From Meloidogyne chitwoodi (lineage: Eukaryota > Nematoda > Chromadorea > Rhabditida > Meloidogynidae), in the NCBI GenBank assembly GCA_015183035.1, contig JACZZP010000014.1:992001-1056000 (forward strand): a stretch of DNA of 64,000 nucleotides, given 5' to 3'. Positions 31,433 through 50,918 of this stretch are shown one piece after another. Each line of letters starts with the position of its first letter. The stretch's first letter is position 1. Both the position numbers and the translations under genes were made by a program. Under the pieces are notes generated by a model, which did no database searches, was not told where the DNA came from, and saw only the letters and a program-made list of their open reading frames with translations.

Positions 31433-32518
31433 ATGGCAGATTTTACAAAACTCCTTGATAAACTTTATAATGATCCTGAGTCTCCTTCAGCATATGCAGG
31501 TATAGATAGTTTATGGAAAGAAGCAAAGAAAACATTTAAACATATTCCTAGAGATGTAATTAAAAATTATTTGGAAGGTCACCGCACCTATACTCTTATG
31601 CGCCCCAAAAGGGTGCACTTTCGTAGGAGTAAAACTATTGCAGCAGGTTTTATGACTGACGTACAAGTAGATTTAGCAGATATGCAGGCACTTTCTAGGC
31701 ATAATAGAGGAAATAAATATATATTATTTGGAATTGATGTTTTGTCCAAACAAGTCTTTACTGTCCCTTTAAAATCAAAGAAAACAAGTGACATGCTGGA
31801 AGCTTTTCATATTCTCCTTGCACAAATGCCTATGAAACCTCACAGAATTTTTTCAGACAAAGGGAAAGAATTTATAAATCATCAATTAAAAGAATTATTA
31901 GAAAAAGAACAAATAGAAAAATATCAACCAACTCATTCTATAGTAAAAGCATCTTTAGCTGAAAGAGGAATTAGAAATTTAAAACAAAGACTCTATCGGT
32001 ATTTCTCTCAAAATAAAACACAAAATTGGATTGATATTTTACCAAAAATTGTTGTAGGAATAAATAAATCTTTTTGTCGTGTACATGGCTTGCGTCCAAT
32101 TGACGTCAATTTTAAAAATGCTCAAAAAGTATGGAAAAAAATTTATGGCAATATTTTCTTTAATAAAAATAAAAAGAAACCAAAATTCAAAAAAGATGAT
32201 TATGTAAGAATTAGTAGAGATAAGGGTAATTTTGAAAAAGGATATCTTCCAAACTGGGGTGATGAAATATTGGAGGTTGAAAAAGTAAAAGGTCATGTTA
32301 ATCCTATATTATATAAATTGCGCGATGATAAAGGACAAAAGTTTAAAGGTTCTTTCTATGAAGATGAAATATCTAAGGTGAAAAAAGATGCGGCAACAGA
32401 GTACCGTATAGAAAAAATTGTTAGAAAAAAGAAAAGAGATGATGGAACATATGATGTATTAGTTAAATTCATTGGTTACCCAGAAAGAGAATGGATTCAT
32501 GAATCACAATTAGTATAA
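31433..32518 (+). CDS. Polinton integrase (DDE, retroviral type) with chromodomain
   Basis: Inserts element DNA into the genome. 361 aa, single exon. The N-terminal region LYNDPESPSAYAGIDSLWKEA is typical of Polinton integrases. The rve core has catalytic D80 (VQVDLADM), D142 (FSDKGKEF) and E177 (LAERGIRNLKQRL), with the usual 35 residues between the last two. The C-terminal 40 residues (YRIEKIVRKKKRD, then YDVLVKFIGYPEREWIHESQL) form a chromodomain, expected to bind histone tails and guide target choice. All three acidic residues and the frame are intact. Confidence 0.95.
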   Translation: MADFTKLLDKLYNDPESPSAYAGIDSLWKEAKKTFKHIPRDVIKNYLEGHRTYTLMRPKRVHFRRSKTIAAGFMTDVQVDLADMQALSRHNRGNKYILFGIDVLSKQVFTVPLKSKKTSDMLEAFHILLAQMPMKPHRIFSDKGKEFINHQLKELLEKEQIEKYQPTHSIVKASLAERGIRNLKQRLYRYFSQNKTQNWIDILPKIVVGINKSFCRVHGLRPIDVNFKNAQKVWKKIYGNIFFNKNKKKPKFKKDDYVRISRDKGNFEKGYLPNWGDEILEVEKVKGHVNPILYKLRDDKGQKFKGSFYEDEISKVKKDAATEYRIEKIVRKKKRDDGTYDVLVKFIGYPEREWIHESQLV

Positions 32519-32546
32519 AAAGATATCTTTTTTAAATATTGTTTCA

Positions 32547-32559
32547 TTTATAAAAATTT
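32547..32559 (+). promoter_or_regulatory. TTTATAAAAATTT box before penton gene
   Basis: TATA-like 13-mer directly upstream of ATG 32567. The same word is at 34634-34646 before the ORF at 34659, and TTTATAAAAATTG at 36517-36529 before ATG 36557. Three occurrences immediately ahead of structural genes suggest a shared late-type promoter element, although AT richness raises the chance rate. Confidence 0.4.
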
Positions 32560-32566
32560 AATAAAA

Positions 32567-34585
32567 ATGTCAAATAGTTTTTTCGTTTTTCTTCCAAGTA
32601 ATGTTCCCGATTATTCTTCAAATAAACCTAATAAATTCCGCGTTCATTTACCAAAACCACTTTATTTTAATGGAAATTGGGTTTGCGGATTACATAGTAT
32701 AAGCTATCCTTATTCTTGGCCATCAACTATTGGCACTCTAGATGAACAATGGTTAAAAATTCACTTCACAGACGATTTGGGGCAAAAACATATTCTTCGT
32801 GTACCTATACCAAGAGCTTCACATACAAATGTTGAAAAATTAAGAGATTTTCTAAATTCTACTCTTGAACAACAATTTAATGCTATTGATTTATTTTTCG
32901 ATCAAAAAGGGTCATCTAAGGTTTTAATTGCTTCTCCACCAAGATTAGAGAAAATAAAAAGAGCTGCGCAATCTCCTCCACCATATATTTCGAATAAAAA
33001 AACATCCGCAGATGTTCAAGAAGGAAAGAAAAAGGTTATTATTCAATCCCCGCCAAAATTTTTCAAAAATAATAGTAGTCAAATATTAAATGATGAAATA
33101 AAAAATAAAAATGATGAAGAAGAAAAGAAAAAGGTCATTGTTCAATCTCCGCCAAAATTTGTCAAAAATAATAGTATTCAAATATTAAATGAAGAAAATA
33201 AAAATTTAAAAAATAAAAATGATGCAGATGTTCAAAATAATGAAAAAATTAATAAAGGTGAAAAGGTCACACAAAAAATAGAAAAAGATGTTGCGCAAGA
33301 AACCAAAAATATTATTTCACCTAAATCCCCAACAAGAAAAGAAAATAAAAATTTTACAAATAAAAATGAACAAACAGCTAGTAAAAATAATAATATTACG
33401 CAATCACCTACATCTTTTCAAAATCTTGCAAATAGGGAATTAATAAATAAAGAGAATGTTATTATAAAAAATAAAAATGATGCAGATGTTCAAAATAATG
33501 AAAAAATAAATAAAAGTGAAAAACAACCAAGTAAAGGTGAAAAGGTCACACAAAAAATGGAAAAAAATATTGCGCAAGAAAACAAAAATATTATTCCACC
33601 TCAATCCCCACCAAAAAAAGAAAATAAAATATTAAATGAAGAAAATAAAAATTTAACAAATAAAAAAGAACAAACAATTAGTAAAAATAATAATAATATT
33701 ACACAATCCTCTCAATCATCTCAAAACCCTAGCGATAAAAATTTATTAAAAAATGAGAATTTAATTAAAAACAAAATTGATGCAGATGTTCAAAATAATA
33801 AAAAATACAAAAATGAAAATGAAAATGAACAAACAAACATAGGTCAAAAGGTCATTCGTTCACAACAATCTTCAGTATTAGATAAAAAAGTTGCGCAAGG
33901 AGAAAATATTTTTAAAAAAGACACTATACCACCTATCATCAGTCCTTTATTTTCATTACAATTTCCAGAAAAAGAAAAAAATAAAACAATCATAAAAGAT
34001 GAAGAGTTAGAATTTTCTATCGAGAACGAAGAAAAATATGAAAATAATACTACCAAGTATAATTCAAAATTTTTATTATGGAGAGAAGGGGATCGTCTAA
34101 AAGGAAATTTAACAATGCTGAAAGACATAATAGATTCAATAGTCTTTGAATATAGTATAGACTTTGCACGTTTTCGACTTATATTTACACATGAAAATAT
34201 TGACCATATATCTTTATCACCTCAATTAGGATATGTTCTTGGATTTGAAAGCTCACAAAATATTCAACATATGGAAATTGCAAAATATGGATGTGACTTA
34301 AGAGGAGGATTTTCTAGCTTTGCTGTGTATGCAAATGGACTAACTGAGAATATGATTATTGGTAATACACTAAGCTCTTTACTCAGAGTTGTTTCTGTTT
34401 CTGGTGCAACGCCGGGAGAATATAACGAAAAAATTTATGATACTCCAATTTATGCTCGAGTTTTACCAAGAGAAATAAATGAAATAGAGATTGAACTAAG
34501 AACTTTAGATAATGGAAGACTTGTCCCTTTTTCATATGGAACAGTTTTAATAGTATTAATATTCAAGAAAGTGATAAATTTTTAA
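32567..34585 (+). CDS. Polinton penton-like minor capsid protein with large N/K-rich insert
   Basis: 672 aa, single exon. The N-terminal segment (FFVFLPSN, FRVHLPKPLYFNGNWVCGLH, SYPYSW) is the hallmark of Polinton/adintovirus minor capsid proteins that form the capsid vertices. The C-terminal part (residues about 505-672: RFRLIFTH, LSPQLGYVLGFE, ADLRGG-type and RVLPREINEIEIELRTLDNG segments) completes the jelly-roll region. Between them about 370 residues are Asn/Lys/Gln-rich and built of loose repeats: KKKVIIQSPPKF and KKKVIVQSPPKF; KNKNDADVQNNEKINK twice; KGEKVTQKIEK / KGEKVTQKMEK. The insert is probably disordered and surface exposed. The frame is intact. Confidence 0.85.
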   Translation: MSNSFFVFLPSNVPDYSSNKPNKFRVHLPKPLYFNGNWVCGLHSISYPYSWPSTIGTLDEQWLKIHFTDDLGQKHILRVPIPRASHTNVEKLRDFLNSTLEQQFNAIDLFFDQKGSSKVLIASPPRLEKIKRAAQSPPPYISNKKTSADVQEGKKKVIIQSPPKFFKNNSSQILNDEIKNKNDEEEKKKVIVQSPPKFVKNNSIQILNEENKNLKNKNDADVQNNEKINKGEKVTQKIEKDVAQETKNIISPKSPTRKENKNFTNKNEQTASKNNNITQSPTSFQNLANRELINKENVIIKNKNDADVQNNEKINKSEKQPSKGEKVTQKMEKNIAQENKNIIPPQSPPKKENKILNEENKNLTNKKEQTISKNNNNITQSSQSSQNPSDKNLLKNENLIKNKIDADVQNNKKYKNENENEQTNIGQKVIRSQQSSVLDKKVAQGENIFKKDTIPPIISPLFSLQFPEKEKNKTIIKDEELEFSIENEEKYENNTTKYNSKFLLWREGDRLKGNLTMLKDIIDSIVFEYSIDFARFRLIFTHENIDHISLSPQLGYVLGFESSQNIQHMEIAKYGCDLRGGFSSFAVYANGLTENMIIGNTLSSLLRVVSVSGATPGEYNEKIYDTPIYARVLPREINEIEIELRTLDNGRLVPFSYGTVLIVLIFKKVINF

Positions 34586-34658
34586 AAAGTATATAAAGCG
34601 ATATTTTCGTAAATTGTATTCATTATTTATTATTTTATAAAAATTTTTTAAAAAGAAA

Positions 34659-35153
34659 ATGGTACATATTATATTCGATACTTCGACAGTCGGTTATGAC
34701 GACTTTATCCAAAATCCTTTATTAAATATTCAAGAAGGGAACGGTCTAGGTGAAATAGGAAATACATACTTCAAAGGAGCATCGCCATTTCAAAGAGGTT
34801 ATGGTTTACAAGGTGGTGCAGGTGTAGGAGATGTTCTTCGAGGAATTTGGCGTTTCTTTCTCCCAATTGTTAAGCGTGTGGGAACAAATGTAACTGCAGA
34901 AGCATTGAACACAGGACAGAGAGTGTTAGAAAGAGTAAATCAGGGAGAACCTATTAAGGAAGCTTTCACATCCGAGGGGAAAAAAGGTTTAGATACATTA
35001 CTTGAAAAAGGAGGATTACCAAAACAGTTTGGCACTGGCCGTCCAAGAAAAAGTATAAAAGGCGGTAAAAAATATTCTTCACCAAATCATAAAATCATTA
35101 TTGGAAAAGTTACTAAAAAAAGAGTTAGATCAGACGCATTCGGTCTTTATTAA
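34659..35153 (+). CDS. Polinton minor virion protein with adenain-type cleavage site
   Basis: 164 aa. Residues 46-56 read RGYGLQGGAGV; LQGG followed by A fits the adenoviral protease consensus (M/I/L)XGG-X, with cleavage after G53. Downstream is an amphipathic helix (GDVLRGIWRFFLPIVKRVG), then a helical EALNTGQRVLERV segment, then a basic tail (RPRKSIKGGKKY, KKRVRSDAFGLY). A cleavage site directly before an amphipathic helix is the layout of the adenovirus membrane-lytic protein VI, so an analogous role in endosome escape or capsid assembly is inferred. It lies between the penton and major capsid genes. Confidence 0.78.
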   Translation: MVHIIFDTSTVGYDDFIQNPLLNIQEGNGLGEIGNTYFKGASPFQRGYGLQGGAGVGDVLRGIWRFFLPIVKRVGTNVTAEALNTGQRVLERVNQGEPIKEAFTSEGKKGLDTLLEKGGLPKQFGTGRPRKSIKGGKKYSSPNHKIIIGKVTKKRVRSDAFGLY

Positions 35154-35171
35154 ATAAAAAAATACTACAAA

Positions 35172-36500
35172 ATGGCTTATCATAAAATAGATAAAGATAG
35201 TATTAATTCAATAACAAATGCTTTGGATTTCTTTCAAATTCCTCCAACAAATGTGAGCATTTCATCCGCCAAAGTTTTTGAAATTTTACCAAGTAATCCT
35301 CTTACAGATACTCCCTATCACTTTAAAATTCATTCTAGTCAAAATTATATTGATCTTTCAAAATGTTATTTATTTACTGAATTTCGTATACGAAAAGAAA
35401 ATGCGAATGGTGTATTAGTAAATTTAGTAGAAACCGACGATGTTGCTCCTATACAATTAATTGGACATACTTTTATTAATAATATGAGAATTAGTATAAA
35501 TGGAAGAGAAGTCTTTAATTCCAATTCGTTAATGGCATACAAATCATATCTTTCTCATGAACTAACTTTTTCATCAGCTGCTAAAAGTTCTCACCTAAAT
35601 GTTTCAGGATATTATGGAGACAATGGATTAAGTTTGGAATCGGGTGCAGGATATGAATCAAGAAAATCTCGTTTTAGTTTAAGTAATACAGCCCAGTTTA
35701 TTTCGAAGATAGATGCAGATCTTTTCAATCAACCATTATATTTAATAAATCAATGTGAAATTGATATAGAAATTCTCCCTAATGATTCGAATTTTGTGTT
35801 AATTGCACCTCCAACAGCGCTAGGAATACAACAAACGAACCGTTACCATTTTGAGGTAATAAATTGTAAATTATATGTGAAAAAAGTGGATATAATGGAT
35901 GGATTGGCTCTTGATATTGCAAGAAAGTTAGACATTCACCCTGCAAGATATGCTATAAGGAAAACAATGATGAAACCTCTATTTATTAGTCAAGGGCGCT
36001 ATGAATTCAATGCAAATTTATTTATGGACCAAATTCCTAGAAGAGTTATACTTGGTCTGGTCTCAAATCATGATTATGTGGGAAATGTAAACAGAAGTCC
36101 TTTTAATTTTCAACCTTTTAATTTGAGAGAAATTAGTATAATTGCAAATGGTCGATGCTATCCTCAAGCTCCATATGATTTCGATTTTCCTCGTGGAAAA
36201 TTTGCTAGAGCTTTTAATGATATGAATGAGGCTATAGGTTTTTCAAATTCATTAGAAAGTAATGGAATAACTTTCGAACAATATGCATTTACACATTGTG
36301 TTTTTGTATTCAATCTTACAAATAGTGGTGAGGATCAAGGAGGACTTTTCGATTTAATTAGAAATGGAACAACCGCCGTCAATATAAAATTTAGTCAACC
36401 TATTCCGGATGGAGGGGTAATGCTTATAGTGATGGGAGAAGCGGATTCTCTAATAATGTTAGATAAAAACAGAACAATAAGTAGTGATACAACAATCTAA
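35172..36500 (+). CDS. Polinton major capsid protein (double jelly roll)
   Basis: 442 aa, single exon, 18 nt after the preceding gene's stop. The N-terminal region ISSAKVFEILPSNPLTDTPY and FKIHSSQNYIDLSKCYLF is characteristic of Polinton and adintovirus hexon-type proteins. Later segments: HTFINNMRISINGREVFNS, YKSYLSHELTFSSAAKSSHL, and the C-terminal half FISQGRYEFNANLFMDQIPR with PFNFQPFNLREISIIANG. Its length is shorter than adenovirus hexon but usual for this class. It should trimerise to build the icosahedral shell. The frame is intact. Confidence 0.92.
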   Translation: MAYHKIDKDSINSITNALDFFQIPPTNVSISSAKVFEILPSNPLTDTPYHFKIHSSQNYIDLSKCYLFTEFRIRKENANGVLVNLVETDDVAPIQLIGHTFINNMRISINGREVFNSNSLMAYKSYLSHELTFSSAAKSSHLNVSGYYGDNGLSLESGAGYESRKSRFSLSNTAQFISKIDADLFNQPLYLINQCEIDIEILPNDSNFVLIAPPTALGIQQTNRYHFEVINCKLYVKKVDIMDGLALDIARKLDIHPARYAIRKTMMKPLFISQGRYEFNANLFMDQIPRRVILGLVSNHDYVGNVNRSPFNFQPFNLREISIIANGRCYPQAPYDFDFPRGKFARAFNDMNEAIGFSNSLESNGITFEQYAFTHCVFVFNLTNSGEDQGGLFDLIRNGTTAVNIKFSQPIPDGGVMLIVMGEADSLIMLDKNRTISSDTTI

Positions 36501-36556
36501 TAATTTTATTAAATCATTTATAAAAATTGTATTTATTTTTAACTTTAGAAATAAAA

Positions 36557-37027
36557 ATGTTATCTAAAAAATTTTCGATTATTATTTTTTTATTACGAGT
36601 TTTTCTTCCTATAACTTCTTTAATTAATAATGAAGAATTGCCAGAGTATTCCGAATATTTACGGAAAATAGCAGAGAGCCAAATAAATATTCCAACTACT
36701 GAACAGACATTAACAAAGTCCGCTGTTGGTCCATTCGCTAATTTTCCATCTATCCAACTGTGTAAGGATGCACCATCAACAAGTGAAAATTACTATACTC
36801 ATTTCTATTGCTGGGTAATGCTCTTTCTCTATGCTTTACTAGTGCTAAGTCTAGTTATATATCAATTACGCTCAATTGTTTGGCTGGGAACTACTATACC
36901 GAAAAGAAAAAATAAAAAGGAAAATAATATTGAACTGACTTTAATCGATGAACAGCTTACAGATTACAAAAATCTTGACAACAAACCCAAAGACGAACCA
37001 AATATTTCAAGGGTGCTTACCGTGTGA
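36557..37027 (+). CDS. Polinton membrane protein with signal peptide
   Basis: 156 aa from ATG 36557; the frame is open further upstream but has no ATG there. The N-terminal MLSKKFSIIIFLLRVFLPIT looks like a signal peptide. An ectodomain of about 75 residues with few Cys (IQLCKD, FYCWV) follows, then a hydrophobic helix (WVMLFLYALLVLSLVIYQL) and a basic then acidic cytoplasmic tail (PKRKNKKENNIELT). Its 3' end overlaps the protease ORF by 80 nt in another frame. Possibly an envelope or host-membrane protein; no fusogen hallmarks were recognised. Confidence 0.7.
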   Translation: MLSKKFSIIIFLLRVFLPITSLINNEELPEYSEYLRKIAESQINIPTTEQTLTKSAVGPFANFPSIQLCKDAPSTSENYYTHFYCWVMLFLYALLVLSLVIYQLRSIVWLGTTIPKRKNKKENNIELTLIDEQLTDYKNLDNKPKDEPNISRVLTV

Positions 37028-37415
37028 CAGTCTTCCCAACATAAACAGTATAAGATATCCGGCAGCATTTGTTTTAAATTTAGATCCACATCAGCAAGGA
37101 GGATCACACTGGGTATCTATTTATGTACAAGGAAAAGAAAAACCAGTATATTATTTTGATAGTTTAACACTTTTTAATCTTCAAAAATCAAAAGATGGAT
37201 GTATAATAAATAATTTTCTTGAAAAATTTCCACAAATAATTAGAAATTGTCATCCTTACCAATCCCCTTTATCTAATACATGTGCCCACCATTGTATATC
37301 CTTTATTTATTTTCTCTCGCAAAATTTTACATTTACCCAATATTTAAAAATACTCTATAGTGAACATAATCCAGATGCATTTGTACGAAAAATAGTGAAT
37401 AAATTAATTAAATAA
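36948..37415 (+). CDS. Polinton maturation protease (adenain-like cysteine protease)
   Basis: 155 aa, C5/Ulp1-clan protease that cleaves virion precursors. Catalytic set visible: H54 in GGSHWVSIYV, D71 in YYFDSLT, Q105 (oxyanion) in PYQSPLS and C112 in NTCAHHC, with the Gln-to-Cys spacing of 7 seen in adenain. The N-terminal IFQGCLPCDSLP is typical of Polinton proteases, which supports real overlap with the upstream membrane-protein gene rather than a later start. A likely substrate is the LQGG-A site in the product of 34659-35153. Confidence 0.92.
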   Translation: MNSLQITKILTTNPKTNQIFQGCLPCDSLPNINSIRYPAAFVLNLDPHQQGGSHWVSIYVQGKEKPVYYFDSLTLFNLQKSKDGCIINNFLEKFPQIIRNCHPYQSPLSNTCAHHCISFIYFLSQNFTFTQYLKILYSEHNPDAFVRKIVNKLIK

Positions 37416-37824
37416 TGTTTTTTCTTTTTTCTATATAGAAATCCATGATATTTAATAGATATGGTAGCATCCAAAAGCAATACTGTAATTAGTTTTTAAA
37501 AAATGGGCGTGGCTTAATTGAAGTATAAAAGGTAAATTTTTAACTAAAAAATAAGTCATTTACACTTTAGTGAAATATACGGCCTTTTATAAAATATGTT
37601 ATATTTTTTTAATATTTATTCTTTAATATATATATATATATTTTCATTTCATTTGTTTTTCAATTTATTAATTACCATATTTTTTAAATTTTCATTATAT
37701 AATAATATTTTTTATTTAATTTTCCCTATTTAAATTCATTAATAAAAATTTAACATTTATTAAATTTTTCATTCATTTCTTATATTTCCACAAATTTATA
37801 GATAATTTTATTAAAATATTAAAA
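37416..37824 (+). promoter_or_regulatory. Polymerase gene promoter region
   Basis: About 400 bp without a gene. It contains GGCGTGGCTTAATT (37506-37519), identical to the box at 28233, followed by TATAAAA (37524-37530). The remaining sequence up to ATG 37825 is AT-rich and may be 5' untranslated sequence. Confidence 0.55.
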
Positions 37825-40800
37825 ATGAGTCCTCCTCCAACCAAACGAGCAAAACTCTCTAGTGAGAATTTTCGTTCTTTTTTTATTGAAAATATTCTTT
37901 TAAACACACCGTCAACTCAACCAAACCAATTAATTAATTCACAACAATTTGGAAATGGAAATCCTGAAAAATATATTACAAAGTTAGACGAAGATGTTGT
38001 TCACAATAAAAAATTCCGCTATACTAAATGTCAAAAAAAATTTCAAATTAAAAATGTTCCCGCCGAACCAGAAGGCCTTCTTGCCGGAATATTTCAGTAT
38101 TGTATTGATGCAGCAATTGCAGAAAGTCGTAAGAACGGAAATGAAGCCGACCACCTTGGATGTGTAATAAGTAGTGAATTACTCGACCCTCATGTATGGA
38201 TTCCTATACGCCAAATTAATGAAAATACAATTGATGCAATTATGAACCAATTTCTAAAGGTTGGTCAGAGTAAGAAACAACAAGGAATAACGCTTTGGGG
38301 AAAGCCATTCGATGTAATAGTAACAACTATTGACACTAAGAATTTACCAGATAAAGAAAAGCTTGTAGGAGGTGGTAAAAATCTTGCTCCAACTCATCAT
38401 AGAATTAATCAACAATGTTTGATCAAGGTAATTTAAAAAAATTTTTCAATTTATTTTTTAAATTTTCAGATAAATAATATTGATGGAAAAAATCATTGTC
38501 TTTTCTTTGCACTTCAAGCAACATTTGTTCACCATATTCGCGGACTTACTCGTTCTCAGTTTTATGATTATTTACATAGTCGCTATGGATCAAGAAATCA
38601 ATTCAAAATTGAAACTTACGAACTTATGAAAAAAGTTGGAGCACCTTTTGGATTGAAGGGTTATGCAGCCGAGGATTGGGTTGGAGCGGTTGTGGATTAT
38701 TGGAACAACAAATATAGTGGCCAATTTTCTTTTAAAGTATTTATTTTTGGTTCGTCAGGACACTATAAACCGATCTACAAATTTGGTCCAGAGATCTATG
38801 ATACTGCAATTATTCTTTATTTTAACAACAAACATTTTGATGGAGTACAAAAGGTTGGAAACATTTTCGGAAAGCCCTATTGCCTTTCATGTGAAATGGT
38901 CTATACCAGACCTAGTAATCATAGAACAAAATGTCAATCACGATGCCTGAATTGTTCTCGGATAGGACCAAAATTCCCCTGCAAAAAAGAAGAAAATTAT
39001 ATAAATAAATGTCAACGATGTTTTAAAACTTTTAACAACACCGACTGTTTCAATCATCACTTAGTAAGTGGATTTTGTAATAACTCTAAACAATGCGAAA
39101 AATGTGGAGAAATATGGAGAGTAGAAATAAATAATCAAAATGGACGCAAAAGACATGTATGTAATGAAAAATATTGCGGTAGATGTGGAGATTTTCATGA
39201 TCCGAAAAGAGGATGCTATATCAGACCTCTCAAGCCTAAACAACAAGAAGCTTTCCGTCTTATTGCATTTGATCTGGAGACAATGCAACATAAATTTTCT
39301 AATCCTACAAAACAACATAGAATACACGAACCAAACTTTATTGCAGCTAAAATTGTCTGCCCACATTGTATATCAACAGGAGAATGGAAAAGAAGTTTGA
39401 AGAATAATGAGTGCAAGGTTTGCGGTCCTCACCGTACCATCACGTTTTCACATCAGCCATACAATGAGACAACATGTGATAAACAAATAATTACACAAAA
39501 TCCTTTGAATGAATTTTCAAAGTGGATACTCTACGATTTGTCTAATAAATATGATACATACGCCTACTCTCATTTTGGTGGAAGATTTGATATGGTCCTC
39601 GTCTTTGAAAAATTATATAACGAGAAGTTAAATCCTGATTTGATAATGAAAGGCAACAAATTATATGAGATGAAAGTGAAGAAACGACCAAATTTAAACG
39701 GCAATATTATTTTCCGTGACTCATACAATCTTATGCCAATGGCTTTGGCGGCTCTTGTACCAACATTTGGTTTGGAAGTAGAGGACAAGCCCTTCTTTCC
39801 TCACTTATCTAATAGACCAGAGAACTATGGAAAGAGAATTTACCCAGTAAAAGAAGATTATTTGGCAGATGGAATGATGCCTGCAAAGAGGAAAGAATTT
39901 GATATATGGTATGAAGTAAATAAAACAATTCCTTTTTTATTGGATGAGGCATTGGCTAGCTATTGTAATAATGATGTTGAAATTTTAATGTGTGCTTTAA
40001 TTGCTTTTCGCCAAGAATTCTTTGAAACAACGAAGCGTCCATCACATAATGGAATTGATGTATTAAGAGAATGTATGACAATTGCTAGCGCATGTATGAA
40101 ACATTTCAGAATAAATCATTTGAAAGAAGAACATTTAGCAATTGTTCCAGAAAGAGGATATGAAAATATTGAGAATCAAAGTTTATTGGGATTAAAATTT
40201 TTACAATGGTATGCAGAGAAAAACAACGTTAAAATACAATCTGCACACTGGAAGGGAGAGAAAGCAGTTGGGAAATATAAATTAGATGGATGGATTGAAG
40301 AGCAGCAACTAGGAATAGAGATTAATGGGTGTGGATGGCATGGATGCCCAAATAAAGGATGTTATCCAGGAGACAATATGTTACTACCGAATGGAATGAC
40401 TGCAGGAGTTAAAAGACAAAAAGATAAAGAAAGAATGGAATTTATTTTGACAAAAGTGCCACGAGTGGATGTATATTGGCAGTGTGAAATAGAACAAATG
40501 TTAGCAAGAGATAGAGAAATGAAGAAAAAGTTTGACAACTATTTAGATGAAGGACCACTAGAAATTAGAGATTGTTTCTTTGGAGGGCGTACCGGACCTT
40601 TGAAGCTTTTTCATCAAAGGAAGTCTGGAGAAAAAATTTCTTATTACGACGTGACATCACTTTATCCATACACAAATTTTATTACCAACTACCCGATTGG
40701 CCATCCAAAAGTTCATACACTTAATGAAGAAGTGTATTGGACAAGAGCAGCAGACAACGCTTATTCTTTTGCTCTTTTGAAAGTATTTATTGTACCACCT

Positions 40801-42036
40801 AAGAAGATCGACATTCCAATTATTCCTGTAAAATTAGATGAACAACGACTACTTTTTCCTCTTTGCGCAAAATGCGCCAAAACTTATCCAAAAGGAGGAA
40901 TAAAAGAGAACTACAATTGTTCTCACAATGATAGAGAAAGAGGCTGGGTTAGCAGCTGCACTTCTATTGAATTAAATGCAGCATTAGAAGAGGGATATAT
41001 AGTTACAAAACTATATAGAGTGTTAGAGTATACCAAGTCTGATGATGAATTATTTCGTCCTTATATGCGGGAATTTTTAGCTCAAAAAATCCACGCTTCT
41101 GGTTTTGATGAAAAAATAAAAGGAAATAAAGAAGAAGAGGAAAAATTTGTGCAAGAGTGTTTGGAAAGATTTGGAATGAAAATAGAAAGAGAAAAGATGA
41201 TTCATAATAAAGGAAAGAGAGCTATTGCAAAGCTTGCAGTGAATAATTTATGGGGAAGATTTTCTTTGCGAAACAGTGGTCTTTCTCAAACACATATCAC
41301 AAGCGATCCAGCTGAATTATGCGAGTATATCAACAACAGATCAATTAAATTATCTGCAATAGATGAATTAAATGTAGAAACAATGATGTTGCGTTATGAA
41401 AAAAAGAAGGAATGGATTGAAGAACACGATAGTTCAAACGTTGTAATATCTCTTTGGACTACATCTGCAGCGCGTTTACATCTATTAAAATTGATGCAAA
41501 AGGTGGTACGCACTCCTGGATGTTCACTGCTTTACACGGGTATCTTTTAATATAATTTATAAAATTTATTTTAAACTTTAGACACTGACTCGCTCATATT
41601 TGCTCATCCAGAAAACAACAATCCTCTTGAGCTAGGATCTCATTTGGGAGATCTGACCGATGAGTATCCACAACATGAAATTATGGAATATTGCAGTGGT
41701 GGTGCTAAACAATATGGACTCAAATTGAAACGAAGAAATGGCTCTGATCAAGATGAAACAGAATATGTTTTGAAGGTGAGAGGAATGACTTTAAATTATG
41801 ATGTAATTAATAATCAAGGTCTTAGATATGAAACATTTAAGAATTCTGTACTTGATTATGTAAATTCCGGTGAACCTAATCCCATTCATATTGTATATCC
41901 CAACTTTTTAAAACCTTCTATTAAAAATAGTTCTATTACATCCCAACCTTTTCATAAAATGTATAACCCTTTTGTTGGCAAAGGCATTATTCGCCCGAGC
42001 GATTTCTCTGTATTAGATTTTGGTTTTATTTCATAA
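37825..42036 (+). CDS. Protein-primed family B DNA polymerase (pPolB)
   Basis: Replicates the linear element. Three exons (37825-38427, 38470-41539, 41582-42036) give about 1375 aa. The N-terminal 370 residues hold a Polinton-type region (HCLFFALQATFVHH) and a Cys-rich zinc-binding block (CLSCEMVY, CLNCSRIG, CQRCFKTF, CEKCGEIW). Exonuclease motifs: Exo I FDLETM, Exo II region YSHFGGRFDMVL, Exo III YCNNDVEIL. Polymerase motif A YYDVTSLYPYTNF, motif B KLAVNNLWGRF and motif C YTDTDS; the intron at 41540-41581 splits motif C inside the first Asp codon. The later KVRGMTLN matches the KxG-type contact motif. All catalytic residues are present. Confidence 0.95.
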
Positions 42037-42105
42037 TAATTTATTTTGTTTAATTATAATTATTTTAATCACATTTTTTAATTGTATTTTTTAACTATAA
42101 ATTAT

Positions 42106-43165
42106 TATTTTTTAATAAAAATAGAAAATACAATTTAAAAAAAATAAAGTATAGAAGTTAACAATTTTAGGGGTAAAATTACATAATTAAGGATGAGAAG
42201 ATACAAATTTTAAAAACTAACAAATAAAAAATAAAAATTTATAATTTTTCGTTGAAAAATTAAGATTATGGTAATAAAAAATAGTATTTATACATAGAAA
42301 GAAAGATAGGTCAAGTTTTAAATAATTAGAGAGTATAATGGAGAAAAGTGTACAGGTAAGGTTATTATACATATATTTAATAGTGCAAATTTATCTAAAG
42401 AATATAACTTTTTTTATGCACAGCGATACTTTTCCCTCATTCAGTTTATGAGGTATATATATGTGTAATTTTTATAAACATTTTCAGGAGCAGGCCTCGA
42501 CCATATTCATGTCTGATAACTCTACATCATAGCGCTATGATGTAGAGCTGTCAGATAAGAATACGGCGGAGCTTTCTTCATTGCACTTGGAAGATTTAAT
42601 TTTTAATTAATTAAAAGAATTATATTTTTTAATTTAATACTTTATTATAAATTTATTATTTCTAATAAAAATAGAAAATACAATTTTTAAAATATTAAAG
42701 TATAGAAGATAGCAATTTTAGGGATAAAATTACATAATTAAGGATGAGAAGATACAAATTTTTAAAAATTAACAAATAAAAAATAAATTAAATAATTTTT
42801 CATGGAAAATGAGAAGATTATGGTAAGGAAAATAGTATATATATAGTGATAGTGAGTGGTCAATGTTTGCATGCAAATATAGATAGTGAGAGGTCAAAGT
42901 GTATGCAAGTAGAGAAAAAAATATGATTAAAGAGTGAATTAATTATTGAGAAATATAACATTTTTATATAAACAGCGACACTTTTCATTCATAAAAATTA
43001 TGAGGTATATATAATTATGGAATTTTTATAAGTATTCAGGAGCAGGCTTCGACCATATTCATACTGGGGGATCTTTGAGGTTCGTTCATCAGCGAACCTC
43101 AAAGATCCCACAGTTAGAATACGGCGGAGCTTCTTCACCGAACTTGGTAGATAAAATTCATATTT
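42106..43165 (+). repeat. Two direct repeats of about 550 bp, each with one hairpin cassette
   Basis: Unit 1 is about 42106-42604 and unit 2 about 42656-43168. Common landmarks are offset by 550-552 bp: ATAGAAAATACAATTT (42121 and 42671), a shared box around TACATAATTAAGGATGAGAA (about 42180 and 42730), CAGCGA(T/C)ACTTTT, TATGAGGTATATATA, GAGCAGGC (42488 and 43040) and CGGCGGAGCTT. The stretches between landmarks have drifted. The repeats lie between the convergent polymerase and PAZ genes. Confidence 0.88.
42485..42604 (+). ncRNA. Candidate hairpin RNA gene 1 (pri-miRNA/VA-RNA-like)
   Basis: Long imperfect stem. The apical arm 42511-42533 pairs with 42534-42557 over about 24 bp, with one A-C mismatch and two G-T wobbles; the apex AGCGCT opens as the loop. 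It sits on a basal stem (CAGGCCTCGACCATATTC against GAATACGGCGGAGC) with regular mismatches. TATATATAT at 42454 lies 31 bp before the stem base (CAGGAGCAGG at 42485), and a conserved CAGCGATACTTTT box is at about -65 to -50. A run of five T at 42600-42604 could end a transcript of about 120 nt. Transcription is inferred, not observed. Confidence 0.62.
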
Positions 43166-43168
43166 TTT
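43037..43168 (+). ncRNA. Candidate hairpin RNA gene 2 (pri-miRNA/VA-RNA-like)
   Basis: Same architecture as hairpin 1 and nearly the same basal stem, but an unrelated apical stem. The arm ACTGGGGGATCTTTGAGGTTCG (43062-43083, quoted as ACTGGGGGATC plus TTTGAGGTTCG) pairs with 43092-43113 with one G-A mismatch, around the 8-nt loop TTCATCAG. TATATATA at 43006 is again exactly 31 bp before CAGGAGCAGG (43037). Conserved sequence follows the stem (GGAGCTTCTTCA, ACTTGG), and a T6 run at 43163-43168 may terminate the transcript. The wholesale, compensated change of the apical stem implies that pairing is maintained by selection. Confidence 0.62.
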
Positions 43169-43201
43169 ATTAAAATTTTTTGTGTAAATTAATATTTAAA
43201 A

Positions 43202-43759
43202 TCACCATCCATTCATATAATCAAAATCATTTTGAGATAAACTAAATTTTCTTCCTCCATAACAGAGATTTTCATCATAATCCGAGAGTGGTACTGGAGT
43301 TGTTACATCGAAGTCTTTTTCTGATTCATCAGGAGTCGAATTTGTTTTTATATCCTTAAAGATATTTGTCATCCAATTTGATTTTTCTTCATCAACAATT
43401 TCAAGAAGTTCCAAAGGGTAAAAGCGATCCTCTCCTTTAGTAAAATGTTCAATAACACATAGATGGAAAGGATAATTGAGCCGTATACGATGACGAGCAT
43501 AAAAATGTGCTGCTACACTTATATTAAACGTTTTTGAAAGCTTTCCATATGCTTGTAAAGTATTAGACCCTTGTCGGGTTAAATCATCAAAAAATAAAGT
43601 TTTGATTTGACCATTTTGATCCAAATAAGTAGTTTTCAATTTTTTTCCTTTTAATTCTTTCAATATTTTTTCTCTATTCGAAGGATGATTGAGTTGATCG
43701 CGCAGTGATTTAACACTGCATTTTAAAATTTTTGCACATTCATCAATAAGAAGAACCAT
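43202..43759 (-). CDS. Stand-alone PAZ-domain protein
   Basis: 185 aa, single exon, inside the Polinton. Residues about 5-124 read as a full PAZ domain, the fold that holds the 3' end of small RNAs in Argonaute and Dicer: REKILKELKGKKLKTTY; KTLFFDDLTRQGSNTLQ; then ISVAAHFYARHRIRLNYP with FHLCV; and the closing DRFYPLELLEIV. The RH pair, NYP and YPLE strands fit nematode Argonaute PAZ domains best. No N, MID or PIWI domain is present: the upstream 198 bp is a divergent promoter and the ORF ends after an acidic tail (STPDESEKDFDVTTP) finishing MNGW. The terminal GW could imitate Argonaute-hook motifs, which is speculative. Likely captured from a host Argonaute; a decoy or silencing suppressor is inferred. 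Confidence 0.8.
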   Translation of the reverse strand: MVLLIDECAKILKCSVKSLRDQLNHPSNREKILKELKGKKLKTTYLDQNGQIKTLFFDDLTRQGSNTLQAYGKLSKTFNISVAAHFYARHRIRLNYPFHLCVIEHFTKGEDRFYPLELLEIVDEEKSNWMTNIFKDIKTNSTPDESEKDFDVTTPVPLSDYDENLCYGGRKFSLSQNDFDYMNGW

Positions 43760-43957
43760 TTTACTTAAAGAAGGAGTAATAATAATAATGCTGGTTTAAA
43801 ATAGAAATATTTTAAAATGATTTTAAAAATATACAAGGTTTCAAAACCCTTGCCCCTTCCTTCAAATTAAAATACACCATCAAATGTTAGCCCCTACCAC
43901 CCATATAAATCCTACTTCCTCCAATTTATTAAAATCATTTTCTGAATTTTATAAAAA
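43760..43957. promoter_or_regulatory. Divergent promoter between PAZ and Cys-rich genes
   Basis: 198 bp separating two divergent ATGs. It contains a GC-richer segment (CCTTGCCCCTTCC, CCCCTACCACCC) and no clear canonical TATA. Short spacing implies shared control. Confidence 0.4.
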
Positions 43958-44570
43958 ATGAGCCAATTTAATTCTGCTATTCCTCCTCCTTCTATTGAGG
44001 AAGCAAATATTGCTTTAAAATTAATTGAAAAACATGAACAGCTTTGGAAATTACAAAAAATAAATAATGTACTATATCATCTTTGCTATGGTAATTTTTT
44101 ATTATAATTTTAATAAATAAAAAAAATTTAGAATGCCAAAATCGACTTTTCCACTCTTCTGATAAGGTGGTACGCAATGGTGATAAAGTGATTATCAAAA
44201 TTGAACTTTGTAACAACTGTGTGAATGATAATTGTTGTGCTACTGATTTGTTATTTAAGAAAAAAAGAACGCAGGAACCAAATATTGCTTTAAAGCAAGT
44301 GGCAAATCCTGAACAACTTTGGAAATTATTAAAAGGAAAAACTGTACTACAATACTTCTTTTGCAACGGTAATAATTATAAATTATTATTTTAAAAATTT
44401 TTTTTAATTTAGAATGTCAACAACAGCTTTTCAATTCTTCTGATACGGTGGTGCGTTATGAAGATAAAGTGGTTATTAAAATTGAACTTTGTAACAACTG
44501 TGTGAAGGAAAATTGTTGTGCAACTGATTTGCTCTCGAACAAGAAAAAGATTTTTGAAAAGAAAATTTAA
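43958..44570 (+). CDS. Polinton Cys-rich protein with tandemly duplicated zinc-ribbon-like unit
   Basis: Unrecognised family; 175 aa from exons 43958-44090, 44132-44368 and 44413-44570, all phase 1 junctions. The second and third exons encode a duplicated unit: ECQ then (L/Q)LF-SSD-VVR-DKV-IKIELCNNCV--NCCATDLL. The exon ends also repeat (EQLWKLQK and EQLWKLLKG; HLCY and FFCN before ECQ), so each unit carries C-x2-C and C-x2-C-x4-CC, enough to bind zinc. Exon-unit duplication with matching intron phase explains the structure. Role unknown. Confidence 0.72.
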
Positions 44571-45112
44571 TTGTTTAATTTAATTATTATTGTATGTATT
44601 TATTTTAATATTTGATAAATTAATTAAAAAATTCTTTTTTATTTATTAACGATAGTCCCTTTGAACAATAGTTATTAGATATTATTTATAAGAATTCAAA
44701 TTTTTTGAATTAATCCTTTATTGAACAAATATTTTTTCTTGTTAGTAAAACATCTGCTTTTTTATAGTTTTATTAATTCTTTTTATTTCTTCGACTTATA
44801 AATGAATAAACAAATATGAGTAAAGTGCCGAATTAAAAACATCATGTAATGAATATTTAATAGTAAAAAACGATGGAATCTTAAGATTAAGACCGAAAGT
44901 AAAGGAATAGAATTAGAGATATACAAATAAATAATAAATAATTTTAACATTGTTTTTTTAATTCTCGCCATATAACCTCTCGTCGTCATCTTCAGTTTTT
45001 GCACCAAGCCTTTTTTTATTATATTTTTTAATTTGTTATAATATTTATTTTTATACAATTTTTATAATTTTAAATTGTAATAATATTTTTAAGCGTTTAA
45101 TAAAATTTTTAA
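44571..45112. other. Gap within Polinton, doubtful minus-strand ORF
   Basis: AT-rich. A 91-codon minus-strand frame (44783-45058) starts with ATG and reads as a basic N-terminus plus one or two hydrophobic stretches (KLFIIYLYISNSIPLLSVLI). With no neighbour, motif or codon signal to support it, I leave it as possible only. Confidence 0.35.
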
Positions 45113-46066
45113 ATGTCGTCTCAACCTTCCTCTTCTTCTTCCTCTTCTTCATCATCAGCTGCATCCCCTGCAGCACGGCCTTTTTATGGGCCTAAAACTT
45201 TTAAAGAAACTGTTCGCGAAGCAGCTGAACAACGTAGAGCTGCTGAAGAGCAAGCAGAAAGGAGAAATTCCTTTCTGCTTGGCTTAAGAGAACGTCGCCA
45301 GCAAAACATGGCGAGTAGAAGAGGGATTAATATAGTAGAAGGTAATTTTTGAATTGTTTAAAATTTTTATAATTAAAAAATTTTAGTCGCCCTTCCGGAC
45401 GACGAGTATTTTGATTTGTTAGCGGGAAACTCTATCCAACAGAGTCCCGCTTCACCATCCTCATCCGAGGATGGTGAATTATTAATACGTGTCCCGATCA
45501 GGGATAATTCAACAATTAATAGTAAGTTAATTAATTTAGATAAAATTTTAATAATATTAAAGATAATGGCGGTGGGAATTTATTCCCTACCCAACCATCA
45601 CTTCTTGCTGCATCAGCTAATCAACAGCAGCAACAACAAGAAATGCAACAAGCTGTTGTAAATGCTAGAATAAATCGTAATTTTTATAATAATTTTAATA
45701 AAATATTTTTTTTTTTAAGGGGATAGCTGGCCAATAGGTCTTCGACAGAAATTCCTGAGGGAATTCAATAAAAAGAGAAGAGAAGGAAAGATTTTAATAA
45801 ATGAAGTATTTAAATGGGAAGAGTCTGAGCAACTTACACCAGAAGACCAAATAAGTTGCACAATATGTTTTGATGATGAAGTTTTGCTGGGATATGGAAT
45901 GTGTGGACAGAAAATAATTTGTGAAAATTGTGTTAAACAATGGAGTTTAACATGGCTTAAGGAAAATAAGTACCCAACCTGTCCTGGTTGTGGTCTTCAG
46001 ACCCCTTATTTTAAAAATATTTTAGGTGAAATAATAAAGGTTGAAATACCTAATAATCTTAATTAA
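45113..46066 (+). CDS. Polinton RING-like protein (non-canonical E3 candidate)
   Basis: 274 aa from exons 45113-45341, 45387-45521, 45563-45676 and 45720-46066 (all phase 1). The N-terminus is a Ser run and Ala/Pro segment, then an Arg/Glu-rich helix (REAAEQRRAAEEQAERR), then a Gln-rich stretch. Near the C-terminus is a RING-like array C206-x2-C209, C221, C227-x2-C230, C247-x2-C250 (CTICFDDE, MCGQKIICENC, TCPGCG). The His expected between C221 and C227 is missing, so it is degenerate or uses another ligand. It could redirect ubiquitination of host proteins, as other viral RING proteins do; this is inference. Confidence 0.75.
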
Positions 46067-46499
46067 AAATTTTTTAGCATAATATATATATTAACAACCT
46101 TTATTATTTTAAATTATTTTACCTTTTATTTTGAATTGTTTTTTTTTTAAATTAATTTAAATATTTTATAATTTACCGAGGCACAATCCATTATTATTTA
46201 TTTTTAAATTAATTTTTAACATACCGACTGACCATACTTTTATTATTTATTATTTTAAATTTATTTTAATATTTAATAACTGTACCGATTTTATGTAATA
46301 CCCTTATTTATTATTTCAAATTATTTTTTTTCTAATTTTATTTTAAACGAATAAAAATAAAACAAATTAATTTTCAATTTTATAAGTAAGAAAACAAAAA
46401 TAAATAAATAAATAAATAAATATATTTTAAAATAATATAAAGAACGAAACAAATCTTTAAAAATTTCAAATAAAATAAAGACAAAAAAATATTCTGAAC

Positions 46500-48852
46500 T
46501 TAAAAAAAGATTTGTTTAAACAAAATAATAAAAAATATATGGTTCATTATTTTCCATGCTAACAAATAAAAATACTTCTTTTGCTGTCTTCGCTTACGTT
46601 TTAAACGACGCATTCTCTTCTTACGCTACTGAAAATTTTATAAAATATAAAATTATTTTATTTAAATAAAATATTAAAAATAATCTTAAAATAAATTATT
46701 CTGTTCTAAAACTTTTTATAATTTTTCAAATTAGATAATATTTTTTATAAAAAAAAACAAAATAATAAAAAAAAAAATATTCACCCTTTTTAAACATTTT
46801 GATTTGCCGCCTGTTCGCGCAACTTCCTTTTTTTTCTATCTCTTTTTACTGATCCATTTCCATTTCTCTAAAAATATAAAAAAGTACATTCAAAAGAATG
46901 TAGTTGGTTTTTATTATAAGTTTAAAATTAATTTTCTAATTTGTAAATTTTTAGTCTATTTTTTAAAATGTAAAATTAAGAATAAAGTATAAAATATTTT
47001 GTTAAATAGTTAAAAATAAAAATTTTGAATAATTTTTATTCTTCCCCTCTTCCCATCCATTCTCTACTTTTCATCCCATGGAACGTTCATCCCATGGAAC
47101 GTTCATCCCATGGAACGTTCATCCCATGGAACGTTCATCCCATGGAACGTTCATCCCATGGAACGTTCATCCCTTGGAACGTTCATCCCATGGAACGTTC
47201 ATCCCATGGAACGTTCATCCCATGGAACGTTCATCCCATGGAACGTTCATCCCATGGAACGTTCATCCCATGGAACGTTCATCCCATGGAACGTTCATCC
47301 CTTGGAACGTTCATCCCTTGGAACGTTCATCCCTTGGAACGTTCATCCCTTGGAACGTTCATCCCTTGGAACGTTCATCCCATGGAACGTTCATCCCATG
47401 GAAAAAGGCTGGATGGGAAGGAGGGGAAGAATAAAAATTATTCAAAATTTTTATTTTTTAAATATTTAACAAAATATTTTATACTTTTATTTTTAATTTT
47501 ACATTTTAAGAATATTTTATTTATTAAATTAAACAAATTTAATAAATTATAAATAAAAACCAACCCTTTTTAGTGCTACTATACCATGCACCTCTTCATG
47601 AACAACCTGATCATATAATAATTTTTTATTTTAATTTTTAATTTTTATAAGAACCAACCTCAACTCTATTATTATTATTATTTTGTTGTTGCTGTTGCAT
47701 TTGATGATTTTCTTCTTCTTCTTGATTCTGAATTAATATATATATTTTATTTATTATTAATTTTTATTTTTAAAAATTCTAATAAACTTAAAAAAACAAA
47801 CTATTTCTATTTCGCCTTCTTCTAATAAATTTTCATCTTCTCCCACAGCTCTTACCATAACCATCTCCTATAAATAAATATTTATTTTATTTGCAAATTT
47901 TATAATTAATTTTTATTTTTAAAAACTAACATTATTATTATTTTCTTCTTCTTCTTCATTCTGAAAATAATTAAATTTAAATTAAATATTATTAATTTTT
48001 ATTTTTAAAATACTAATATTTAAAAAAACTTACAATTTCGCCCTCTTCTAGTAAAATTTCTTCCTCAACTCTTACCGTAACCATCTCCTATATTGATTAA
48101 AATTATTTTATTATATCATTTATTTTATAAAATTAATAATAAGAAAAACTAACCTCAACATCACCCACAAGATTTTCTTCTTCTTCTTCTTCTTCATCTT
48201 GTATCTTAAAGAAAATATTTATTTTTATTATTATTAATTTTATTTTTTAAATTTCTAATAAAAATTTTATAATTTTAGAATAAAAACCAACTATTTCTCG
48301 ATCTTCTAATGTAGTCTATAATAATTAATTTTATTTTAAATTAAATTTTATATAAATAAAACAGAAGAAAAAACAACCTCAATAATTTCATGAAATTGCA
48401 CATCAAAAATTTCATTTTCTTCTTCCTCCTCTTCATTCTGAATTATTTAATATTATTTATTTTAAAGTATTATTAATTTTATTTTTTAAATTAATAATTT
48501 TTAAATTTTAGAATAAAAAACAAACTATTACTCCAAACTGATTATTATTATTATTTTGTTGTTCATTTATTCCATTATGAACTAAAATAAAAAAATAAAA
48601 TTTTAATAATTAAATAATGAACCATTATATATATTATTTAAAGCATCTCCTATTTGTTGAAGATCTACATTATTATTTAAAATATTATTATTTATTTGTT
48701 GTTGTTGATTTTCTTCTTCTTGTGGATTCTAAATTAATATATATATATATATATATTTTAATTTATTATTAATTTTTATTCTTAACATCCTAATAAAAAT
48801 TTTTAAATAATAAAAAAACTCACATAGTCCTCATCCATATCCTCATCATTTA

Positions 48853-48886
<34 letters not shown>

Positions 48887-50336
48887 TAAATAATTTAAAT
48901 TATTATTTTCTTCGATGAATATTAATTCTCTTACTAAAAATTTTTTATATTTATATTAATTAAAATTATTTACTAGCTGCCCTCCTCTTTGGAACCCTCG
49001 TAGCAGCAGTTGTAAGACGTTTGTTTCCGCTAAATGGGTGCCAACGAGGAGGTCTCTGAGCTTCATTTCCAAATATATTATGGCAATCCCTCCTTGGGGT
49101 GCAGCCCACAATATGTTTTCCTGCCCAGATCTGAACAGATTCAGCACAGGACTCTTGCTAAATTATTATAAAAACTTATTTACATAAAATTATTAAATAA
49201 TATAATAAAAATAATCAAAAAAAAAAAACTCACTGCGTCAATAAAATTTTTATTTTCCCAAGAACATTCACCATTTATCCATCTTATATAATATCTACTC
49301 TCATTATATTGGTTGCAAGTGCAAAAATAATTACACATTGTTATTATTTTATTAATTTCATATTCTTAATAAAATAAAAATTTAAAAAATAATTCTATCT
49401 TTAATCATACGTTCGCCATTATTATGTAATTCAAGAGGGTAATTATGATGATGATGATGATGATGCTGATTATTATTATTATTTAAATTATTATTATTTA
49501 ATTGATCAATTTCTTCTTCTTCTTCTTCATCAATAATTAAAGGATTTAAAAAATCATCATTATCTTGTTGATCATTTTGATTATTATTATTTTGTTGTTC
49601 TTCTCTCCCTCTCCTCCTAGGAGGTGTTACGGGTTGATGAACTGCATTTTATTATTAAAAATATAAATTTAAATAAATAAAAATAAATAATTAAAAAAAA
49701 AAGTAAACATACTAATATGTTGAATTATTTGAATATCATCATCTAATTGTTGTCGTTGTGGTTGTTGTTGTTGAATATTATTAAGTTGTCGTTGGGGTGC
49801 AGGCATTGGTCTTGGCGGTGTTTGTTGTTGTCGTGGCAGTGGTGTTACTATTCAATATAATTATTTAAATTAATTAAATATGTAAAATATAATCAAATTA
49901 AAAATTACCACGGGCTACTGGGCGAATAGAAGCTACAGGTATTATTATTTAATATTGAAGAATTAGCTGAAGAAGAAGTTGAAGCATCTGTTGAAGGAAT
50001 ATTATTATTATTATTATTATTTAATATTGAAGAAGAATTTGAAGTAATATTATTATTATTTAATATTGAAGAAGTTGAAGGAATATTATTATTATTATTA
50101 TTTAATATTGAAGAAGAAGTTGAAGGAATATTATTAGTAGACGATTTATTATTTGAAGAATTTGAAGAAGAAGCTAACATTGTATTAGCAATAGTAGTAG
50201 AATTATTATTATTTGAAAATGAATTAATATTATTTATTATAAAATAGTGTATAAAAAAATAAAAAAAAAACTTACCAGTAATTGCCTGATCTATAATATC
50301 CTCCGCATTTATGATAAGCGCAGGAATATGTGCCAT
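46500..50336 (-). CDS. Polinton many-exon low-complexity protein with Cys domain
   Basis: Unrecognised. ATG 50336 (MAHIPALIINAEDIIDQAIT), last stop 46500-46502. I follow about 17 small exons in a consistent frame. Early exons are Pro/Gln/Arg-rich (TPLPRQQQTPPRPMPAPQ). A Cys domain follows (CNYFCTCNQYNESRYYIRW, INGECSW, ESCAESVQIWAGKHIVGC, RRDCHNIF). Next are repeated acidic exons in two types, EMVTVRVEEEILLEEGEI / EMVMVRAVGEDENLLEEGEI and NEEEEEN-like, with matching intron ends. The last two exons (46796-46867 and 46500-46625) are strongly basic (GSVKRDRKKRKLREQAANQN; RKKRMRRLKRKRRQQKK). Exon boundaries in the Asn-rich part are uncertain. It faces inward from the right TIR. Confidence 0.55.
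46903..47564. repeat. Fold-back inverted repeat with central minisatellite
   Basis: The arms (about 46903-47060 and 47415-47564) are inverted copies of each other with few differences, from GTTGGTTTTTATT at the outside through TAAAATATTTTGTTAAATA to TTATTCTTCCCCTC next to the core. The whole structure sits in one intron of the minus-strand gene. The right arm begins at that intron's donor, so the arms look like an inverted duplication of intron sequence. This intron is about 700 nt; the others are about 60-90 nt. Confidence 0.8.
47074..47402. repeat. 16-bp minisatellite, about 20 copies
   Basis: The unit CATCCCATGGAACGTT is repeated head to tail without spacing changes. Six copies carry CTTGG in place of CATGG, five of them consecutive (about 47298-47376). 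Each unit includes the palindromes CCATGG and AACGTT. Because 16 is not a multiple of 3, all three plus frames stay open, producing spurious ORFs. Confidence 0.95.
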
Positions 50337-50736
50337 TAAATATATTTAATTATGAAATATATAAAAATAATCTAAATTTTTTATAAGTAAAAATTTTATA
50401 ATAAAAATATATATATAATATATGTGGAAATGTAAATGAGTGAATAGTTGTGATGATGAAAAATGTGAAGAAGAAAAATCAATGAGACATTTTTCATAGA
50501 AAAAATGTCTGGGTCAACTCTTTTCCTCTTCTAAGAAAAATTGGTAGGTCATTAAGAGAGAAAAAAGCGCGGGCAAAAAGCGCGGGCACCTTATGGTCAA
50601 TAATCAACAATTTGAATTATATTTTTTAAAATAAATATTTTTTGCGAATAAATGGGGTGTGTACCTAAGTATAAAGAAAATTCCAATTATTTCGCGCACT
50701 CCTTAAGTTCACACCTTTAAGTTTAATTATTTACCT
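50337..50736. promoter_or_regulatory. Right subterminal region of Polinton
   Basis: Upstream of the minus-strand gene. It contains a short hairpin (AGACATTTTT-CATAG-AAAAAATGTCT, about 50486-50511) and a 13-bp tandem AAAAAGCGCGGGC repeated twice (50562-50587). AT-rich TATA-like tracts lie at 50395-50425. No gene is supported here. Confidence 0.45.
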
Positions 50737-50918
50737 ATTAAAGGATTAGGTATCAATTAGTTAATTACAAGGATTAAAGCTTTTACCGCGTCGCGACTGC
50801 CCCAATCACTTAATTTTAATTAAAAAATCCCCCTAATCCTTTGCGGTATCCTTTGATCAACAGCTTAAAGGTGAGGTCAGTTATTGACAGCCACGACGGT
50901 CCAGTCCCTGTAACTACT
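50737..50918 (-). repeat. Polinton right terminal inverted repeat (182 bp)
   Basis: Mirror of 25307-25487 with a single-base insertion. It ends CCCTGTAACTACT at 50918, followed directly by the duplicated AATAAT. On the plus strand the last 100 bases have no stop in the frame that continues into the host exon, but no ATG either. Confidence 0.96.

Follow-up and report, generated by a model that had tools for sequence, protein, structure and literature searches.

A Polinton of Meloidogyne chitwoodi carries two tandem cassettes that are very probably Pol III hairpin RNA genes. In both, a promoter matching that of the host's U6 genes precedes a hairpin in which a shared basal stem bears an apical stem of its own. 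The cassettes lie on contig C6, in a stretch of 64,000 nucleotides analysed here as a whole (the window). A preliminary description of this DNA had proposed tandem hairpin cassettes, and both motifs were indeed located, at 42485 (H1) and 43037 (H2), with a unit spacing of 551–552 bp. To our knowledge, no RNA gene has been described in a Polinton. The cassettes and their surroundings comprise the following features, in window coordinates:

25307..50918, no strand assigned: Polinton with both cassettes, 25.6 kb, both ends present
38626..41550, + strand: PolB main reading frame (PF03175, E 1e-38, 133.9 bits)
to about 42036, + strand: apparent last exon of PolB, called by eye
42420..42433, + strand: H1 PSE, one mismatch to the U6 PSE
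42454..42459, + strand: H1 TATA box (TATATA; motif and spacing)
42486..42509, + strand: H1 predicted start and 5′ basal strand (fold, spacing, alignment)
42510..42558, + strand: H1 apical stem-loop, the exchangeable part (fold, sister comparison)
42559..42579, + strand: H1 3′ basal strand (fold, alignment)
42580..42604, + strand: H1 conserved tail and terminal T5 (alignment of RNAs)
42972..42985, + strand: H2 PSE, identical to the U6 PSE
43006..43011, + strand: H2 TATA box (TATATA; motif and spacing)
43038..43061, + strand: H2 predicted start and 5′ basal strand (fold, spacing, alignment)
43062..43116, + strand: H2 apical stem-loop, unrelated to those of H1 and C26-H2 (fold, sister comparison)
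43117..43136, + strand: H2 3′ basal strand (fold, alignment)
43137..43168, + strand: H2 conserved tail and terminal T6 (alignment of RNAs)
43202..43759, − strand: convergent open reading frame of 185 aa

The element that contains the cassettes ends in inverted repeats of ∼195 bp (97% identity), each with AGTAGT at its start, and is flanked by a 6-bp target duplication, AATAAT, at 25301–25306 and 50919–50924. Besides PolB, it gave matches above the Pfam cut-off to PF02456 (IVa2-type, packaging-type ATPase; 25.5 bits) and PF02902 (C48-type, adenovirus/Ulp1-type protease; 21.9 bits), and a match just below the cut-off of 32.6 to PF00665 (rve integrase; 29.8 bits); no capsid gene was identified among its Pfam matches. 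PolB, integrase, ATPase, protease, inverted terminal repeats and a target duplication of 6 bp together identify the element as a Polinton, in agreement with its earlier description as adenovirus-related. Polintons are regarded as close relatives of large DNA viruses, adenoviruses among them, and as vehicles that move genes from one nematode species to another. The cassettes are bordered by PolB on one side and by the convergent frame at 43202–43759 on the other. Further along the element, at 47070–47403, lies a 16-nt tandem repeat of 21 copies with CCATGG.

The conserved box that had been noted upstream of each hairpin starts at −66 and corresponds, by sequence match, to the host's U6 PSE. This PSE, ACAGCGACACTTTT, has five exact copies in the genome (47.48 Mb, 30 contigs): one at H2 of the window, one at the H1 cassette of a second Polinton on contig C26 (C26-H1) and three on contig C27, where one site heads a full Rfam U6 gene and the other two match that gene in promoter and first bases, the parts covered by the comparison. 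The PSEs of H1 and of C26-H2 carry one mismatch each. Measured from the start of the PSE, the A of AGGAG, at which the hairpin starts, lies 66 nt away in all four cassettes, and the first base of U6 lies 66, 65 and 66 nt away at the three U6 loci. TATATA starts 32 nt upstream of the A of AGGAG in both cassettes of the window, or 31 upstream of CAGGAG, which is the spacing previously reported. The gap between PSE and TATATA is 20 nt in the cassettes compared with 23–24 nt at the three U6 loci; a weaker U6 match has a PSE with two mismatches and TATATA 22 nt after it. U2 promoters, of which six out of ten matches were fetched, show at least five mismatches to the U6 PSE and no TATATA. Since TTATAA or TTATGA occurs near −27 in five of these six U2 genes, a TATA box alone cannot separate Pol III from Pol II promoters here. 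With the host's U6 PSE and a TATA box at U6 spacing before the predicted start, the cassettes have the type 3 (U6-type) layout.

A genome-wide pattern of PSE plus TATA returned 38 rows, compared with 5 for a reversed control. Six rows correspond to the four cassettes, four to the three U6 loci and 22 to contigs C16, C17 and C25; the remaining six are scattered, and inspection of these revealed no comparable hairpin. When the PSE was searched with one mismatch, 47 rows were obtained versus 31 for the reversed control, indicating that many of these matches are due to chance. On C16, C17 and C25 (L076, L077, L080 and L081), minisatellite arrays with a ∼29-nt unit, TTTCAACAATAAATTGAAACACTTGAAATG, are preceded by a U6-like PSE and, after it, TATATA or TATATT; the four places read, some of them near a contig end, look like Pol III-type promoters ahead of satellite DNA.

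Downstream T-runs, also part of the preliminary description, begin 114 nt (H1) and 125 nt (H2) after the A of AGGAG. The first run of at least four Ts past each start is this terminal T5 or T6, but since 678, 355, 708 and 82 per 1000 shuffled transcripts of the four cassettes are likewise free of an earlier TTTT, the absence of an internal TTTT is weak evidence. None of the four transcripts contains an A box (at up to one mismatch) or a B box (at up to two), and the UUAUC motif of Y RNAs is absent. Rfam assigned the hairpins to no family at the gathering threshold and gave no Y RNA match at E up to 1; by Rfam and by the absent UUAUC, the cassettes are not stem-bulge RNAs or Y RNAs. Membership of a known Rfam miRNA family was also rejected: two matches, MIR3444 (29 bits, cut-off 80) and MIR7533 (28.4 bits, cut-off 230), are weak and lie far below their cut-offs.

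Both hairpins of the window fold more stably than all of 200 shuffled sequences, with −47.9 kcal/mol for H1 (z −6.9) and −63.9 kcal/mol for H2 (z −10.9). The values for the C26 cassettes are −48.7 kcal/mol (C26-H1, z −7.6) and −38.6 kcal/mol (C26-H2, z −4.6), the latter being the weakest of the four. When 8520 segments of 110 nt from both strands of the 64 kb were ranked, H2 came second and H1 seventh among non-overlapping sites; the stronger-folding sites are in the 16-nt tandem repeat at 47070–47403, in an apparent spliced gene (45376) and at 4921. Strong folds at 45205–45670 were set aside because the sequence there reads as a spliced gene.

The four hairpins combine one basal stem of ∼19 bp with three unrelated apical stems of 22–24 layers, and all four RNAs have the tail TTCTTCA..G.ACTTGG.AG in common. 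As described earlier, the apical stems of H1 and H2 have no common sequence. Their basal mismatches, on the other hand, had been considered identical in position and are not: H1 has an additional C·A mismatch and one additional U, and H2 has a U-A pair there. An alignment of the four RNAs has 31 pairs, 19 of them basal and 12 apical; 94.4% of its cells are paired, compared with a mean of 85.0% after shuffling, and both sides have changed in 12 of the 31 pairs (shuffled mean 4.8), a number reached by none of 500 shuffles; considering that there are four rows, two of them close kin, and that the structure was drawn from these same rows, this test describes more than it proves. Shifting the partner by one to three columns lowers the paired cells to 42–58%. 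Between the basal stems of H2 and C26-H2, 7 of 44 sites differ, three of them unpaired and four within three pairs, all of which remain paired, one through a change from C-G to G-C; in simulations with seven random changes, all 19 basal pairs were kept in 470 of 200,000 sets. A duplex stem of ∼22 bp, of the type found in miRNA or shRNA precursors, is present and covaries between copies. Folding and covariation in another Polinton copy had been suggested as checks, and both came out in favour of structured RNAs; taken with the comparison of U6 and U2 promoters, the covariation strongly supports dedicated RNA genes of the U6 promoter type.

The Polinton on C26 contains both cassettes and is 92–96% identical to that of the window over long aligned pieces. 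C26-H1 differs from H1 by four apical changes and one change in the promoter, with none in the base and tail. Taken together, promoter, base and tail of H1 differ at 1 of 137 sites between C6 and C26, compared with 55 of 647 sites in two spacers (p 0.0004), indicating a conserved H1 scaffold, and the H1 tip has changed at 4 of 49 sites, about the spacer rate. The promoter, base and tail of H2 differ at 18 of 142 sites and are not more conserved than the spacers (p 0.15). C26-H2 shares the scaffold and bears a third apical stem, unrelated to the others, so that the H2 tips differ at 41 of 55 sites; of the flanks, the spacer is 91% identical and the gene end has one change in 189 sites. Between the sister elements, the H2 tip has been replaced as a block. 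The diversification of apical stems proposed earlier is supported in the sense of sequence turnover among copies. An element on contig C2 has kept a promoter-like stretch and has no hairpin.

Genome-wide pattern searches with the 5′ basal strand (up to three mismatches), the 3′ basal strand (up to two) and the tail (up to three) yielded no further cassettes. The 3′ basal strand pattern gave 11 matches compared with 12 for its reversed control, and seven further weak matches to this strand had no model match. A tail match on C29, with one mismatch, lacks both a hairpin of this kind and a PSE, and it scored 14.2 bits (E 0.017) with the model that gives the cassettes 129–140 bits. In 30 PolB loci, scanned out of 60 PolB matches with ∼1.5 kb on each side (flanks that reach H1 and often not H2), the two basal motifs occur together at the C6 and C26 loci only. 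Seven other PolB loci yielded nine strong folds, which were rejected since they look coding or like simple palindromes; a PSE within two mismatches is absent from these loci except for one in L045. This locus, on C28, has a long near-perfect palindrome at 4369–4488, at the end of the PolB frame; its PSE-like site, with two mismatches, lies elsewhere. In L026, a Polinton on C24 with a PolB 77% identical, the small palindrome GCGTGTGAAATATATTCGCACG is present without a PSE in both PolB-flanking spacers (344–445 and 5240–5335), the downstream one at the place of the window element's cassettes. L046 (2700–3300, C11) has a PolB copy 98–99% identical to that of the window and, near its 3′ end, sequence resembling the window's RING-like gene in place of hairpin cassettes. 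Pairs of equal-score PolB matches in opposite orientation, 3–9 kb apart, were seen on C12 (2245931–2257861), C6 (110368–119270 and 132565–141461) and C26 (1779057–1790264), suggesting large palindromic Polinton arrangements. IMG/VR contained no match to the basal motif or to an H2 arm, and five matches to a degenerate 18-mer of H1 were taken as chance.

The apical arms (a 22-nt arm from each of the three stems) had no match outside the hairpins on either strand of the genome at up to three mismatches; no transposon family is therefore seen, and a transposon or MITE origin of the tips was rejected. In the Polinton DNA searched, the best match of six apical arms and two basal strands never exceeded the largest value from 25 shuffles in any of four banks. 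The search for targets of the apical arms, which the preliminary description had put forward, was thus negative in both settings, and the interpretation given in that description is, as a whole, partly supported.

We favour, somewhat more than we doubt, the reading that the cassettes are U6-type Pol III hairpin genes whose transcripts are cut by Dicer, the apical duplex giving rise to guides of ∼22 nt. Each cassette would be a stand-alone type 3 gene, with the PSE at −66, TATA at −32 and a T5 or T6 after 114–125 nt, and transcription would begin at the A that immediately flanks the base of the stem. Pol III would then produce, from the stem base onward, an RNA of 119–131 nt that folds into a nearly closed hairpin of ∼42 layers. 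The hairpin has two parts of roughly Dicer length, one basal and constant, the other apical, exchangeable and 22–24 layers long. Considering that the basal strand measures ∼24 nt and the tip 22–24 layers, host Dicer working from the open end, or Drosha followed by Dicer, would release the apical duplex as a small RNA of ∼22 nt; judged by duplex length, Dicer-sized products are plausible. Such a small RNA may act on host, rival-element or viral RNA; the basal stem would be a constant platform for processing, and a new tip would bring a new target. Tentatively, we also entertain a natural re-programmable shRNA system, in which ∼22-bp guides are swapped while U6 promoter, basal stem and tail stay fixed, giving the Polinton RNAi triggers of its own against RNAs of the host, of rival elements or of viruses as these change. 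The lack of a target (within three mismatches in the genome, or above shuffles in Polinton DNA) counts against guide function, and the confinement of the four cassettes to two sister elements counts against the main reading, as do the H2 scaffold, which is no better conserved than the spacers, the comparatively weak fold of C26-H2 and the C2 element with its promoter-like stretch.

The main rival is a decoy similar to VA RNA: the Pol III hairpin, left intact, would shield the Polinton from RNAi by engaging or saturating Dicer, ADAR or dsRNA-binding proteins of the RDE-4 type; the apical sequence would be free to change because duplex shape alone matters. The shape is indeed kept while apical sequence is replaced, the H1 apical part changes at the spacer rate (4 of 49 sites), and the arms found no target within three mismatches in the genome or above shuffles in the Polinton DNA searched. 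However, neutral drift alone does not explain a wholesale swap of the H2 tip between flanks at least 91% identical, and the apical length is constant at 22–24 layers. We consider a decoy clearly less likely than guides. The shared tail and the H1 base and tail, unchanged between the sister elements, would also suit a scaffold RNA that serves the element, its constant base and tail binding a Polinton or host protein (e.g. in replication or packaging) and its tip merely stabilising the fold. This is improbable, as no protein partner is known and the cassettes occur in only 2 of the 30 scanned PolB loci, and hence would not meet a general need of Polintons. Least probable of all is an absence of RNA function, the hairpins being artefacts of the assembly, or small inserted palindromes, next to a U6 promoter that had been captured. 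Simple palindromes at other Polinton loci, such as L045, and the C2 element with its promoter-like stretch and no hairpin are consistent with such an origin, but it is difficult to reconcile with four hairpins on two contigs, all 66 nt from a PSE, with covarying basal pairs and with arms that have no other genome match within three mismatches.

Should small RNAs be made from the cassettes, the Polinton would represent a transposon that brings along exchangeable triggers of RNAi, together with a Pol III promoter compatible with its host. This would be a testable way in which mobile DNA acts on the RNAi of the host, and it would parallel the VA RNAs of adenoviruses independently. For this lineage, the U6-type PSE with the spacing determined here would also serve as a compact promoter for Pol III.

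The likeness to adenovirus VA RNA I/II that was suggested earlier, two tandem and highly structured small RNAs, probably made by Pol III, in an adenovirus-related element, may hold for their role. It does not extend to the promoter: VA RNAs have internal A/B boxes, which were not found here, whereas the cassettes have an external U6-type promoter and, by promoter type, are not VA RNAs. The Pol III pre-miRNAs of bovine leukaemia virus and the tRNA-linked ones of gammaherpesviruses are, like the cassettes, compact hairpins with a ∼22-bp miRNA-like duplex, but they use type 2 promoters, while the cassettes are of type 3, with an unchanging base on which the tip is exchanged. Nematode stem-bulge RNAs and Y RNAs are likewise small Pol III RNAs with PSE/TATA promoters and a conserved base; the cassettes differ by their long near-perfect apical duplex and by having neither an Rfam Y RNA match nor UUAUC. 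Laboratory U6-promoter shRNA cassettes, a closer likeness than VA RNAs and the viral pre-miRNAs, resemble those described here in their PSE/TATA promoter, start at the stem base, exchangeable duplex of ∼22 bp and end at a T-run, whereas the Polinton cassettes are natural, reside in a transposon and possess an extra conserved basal stem and tail.
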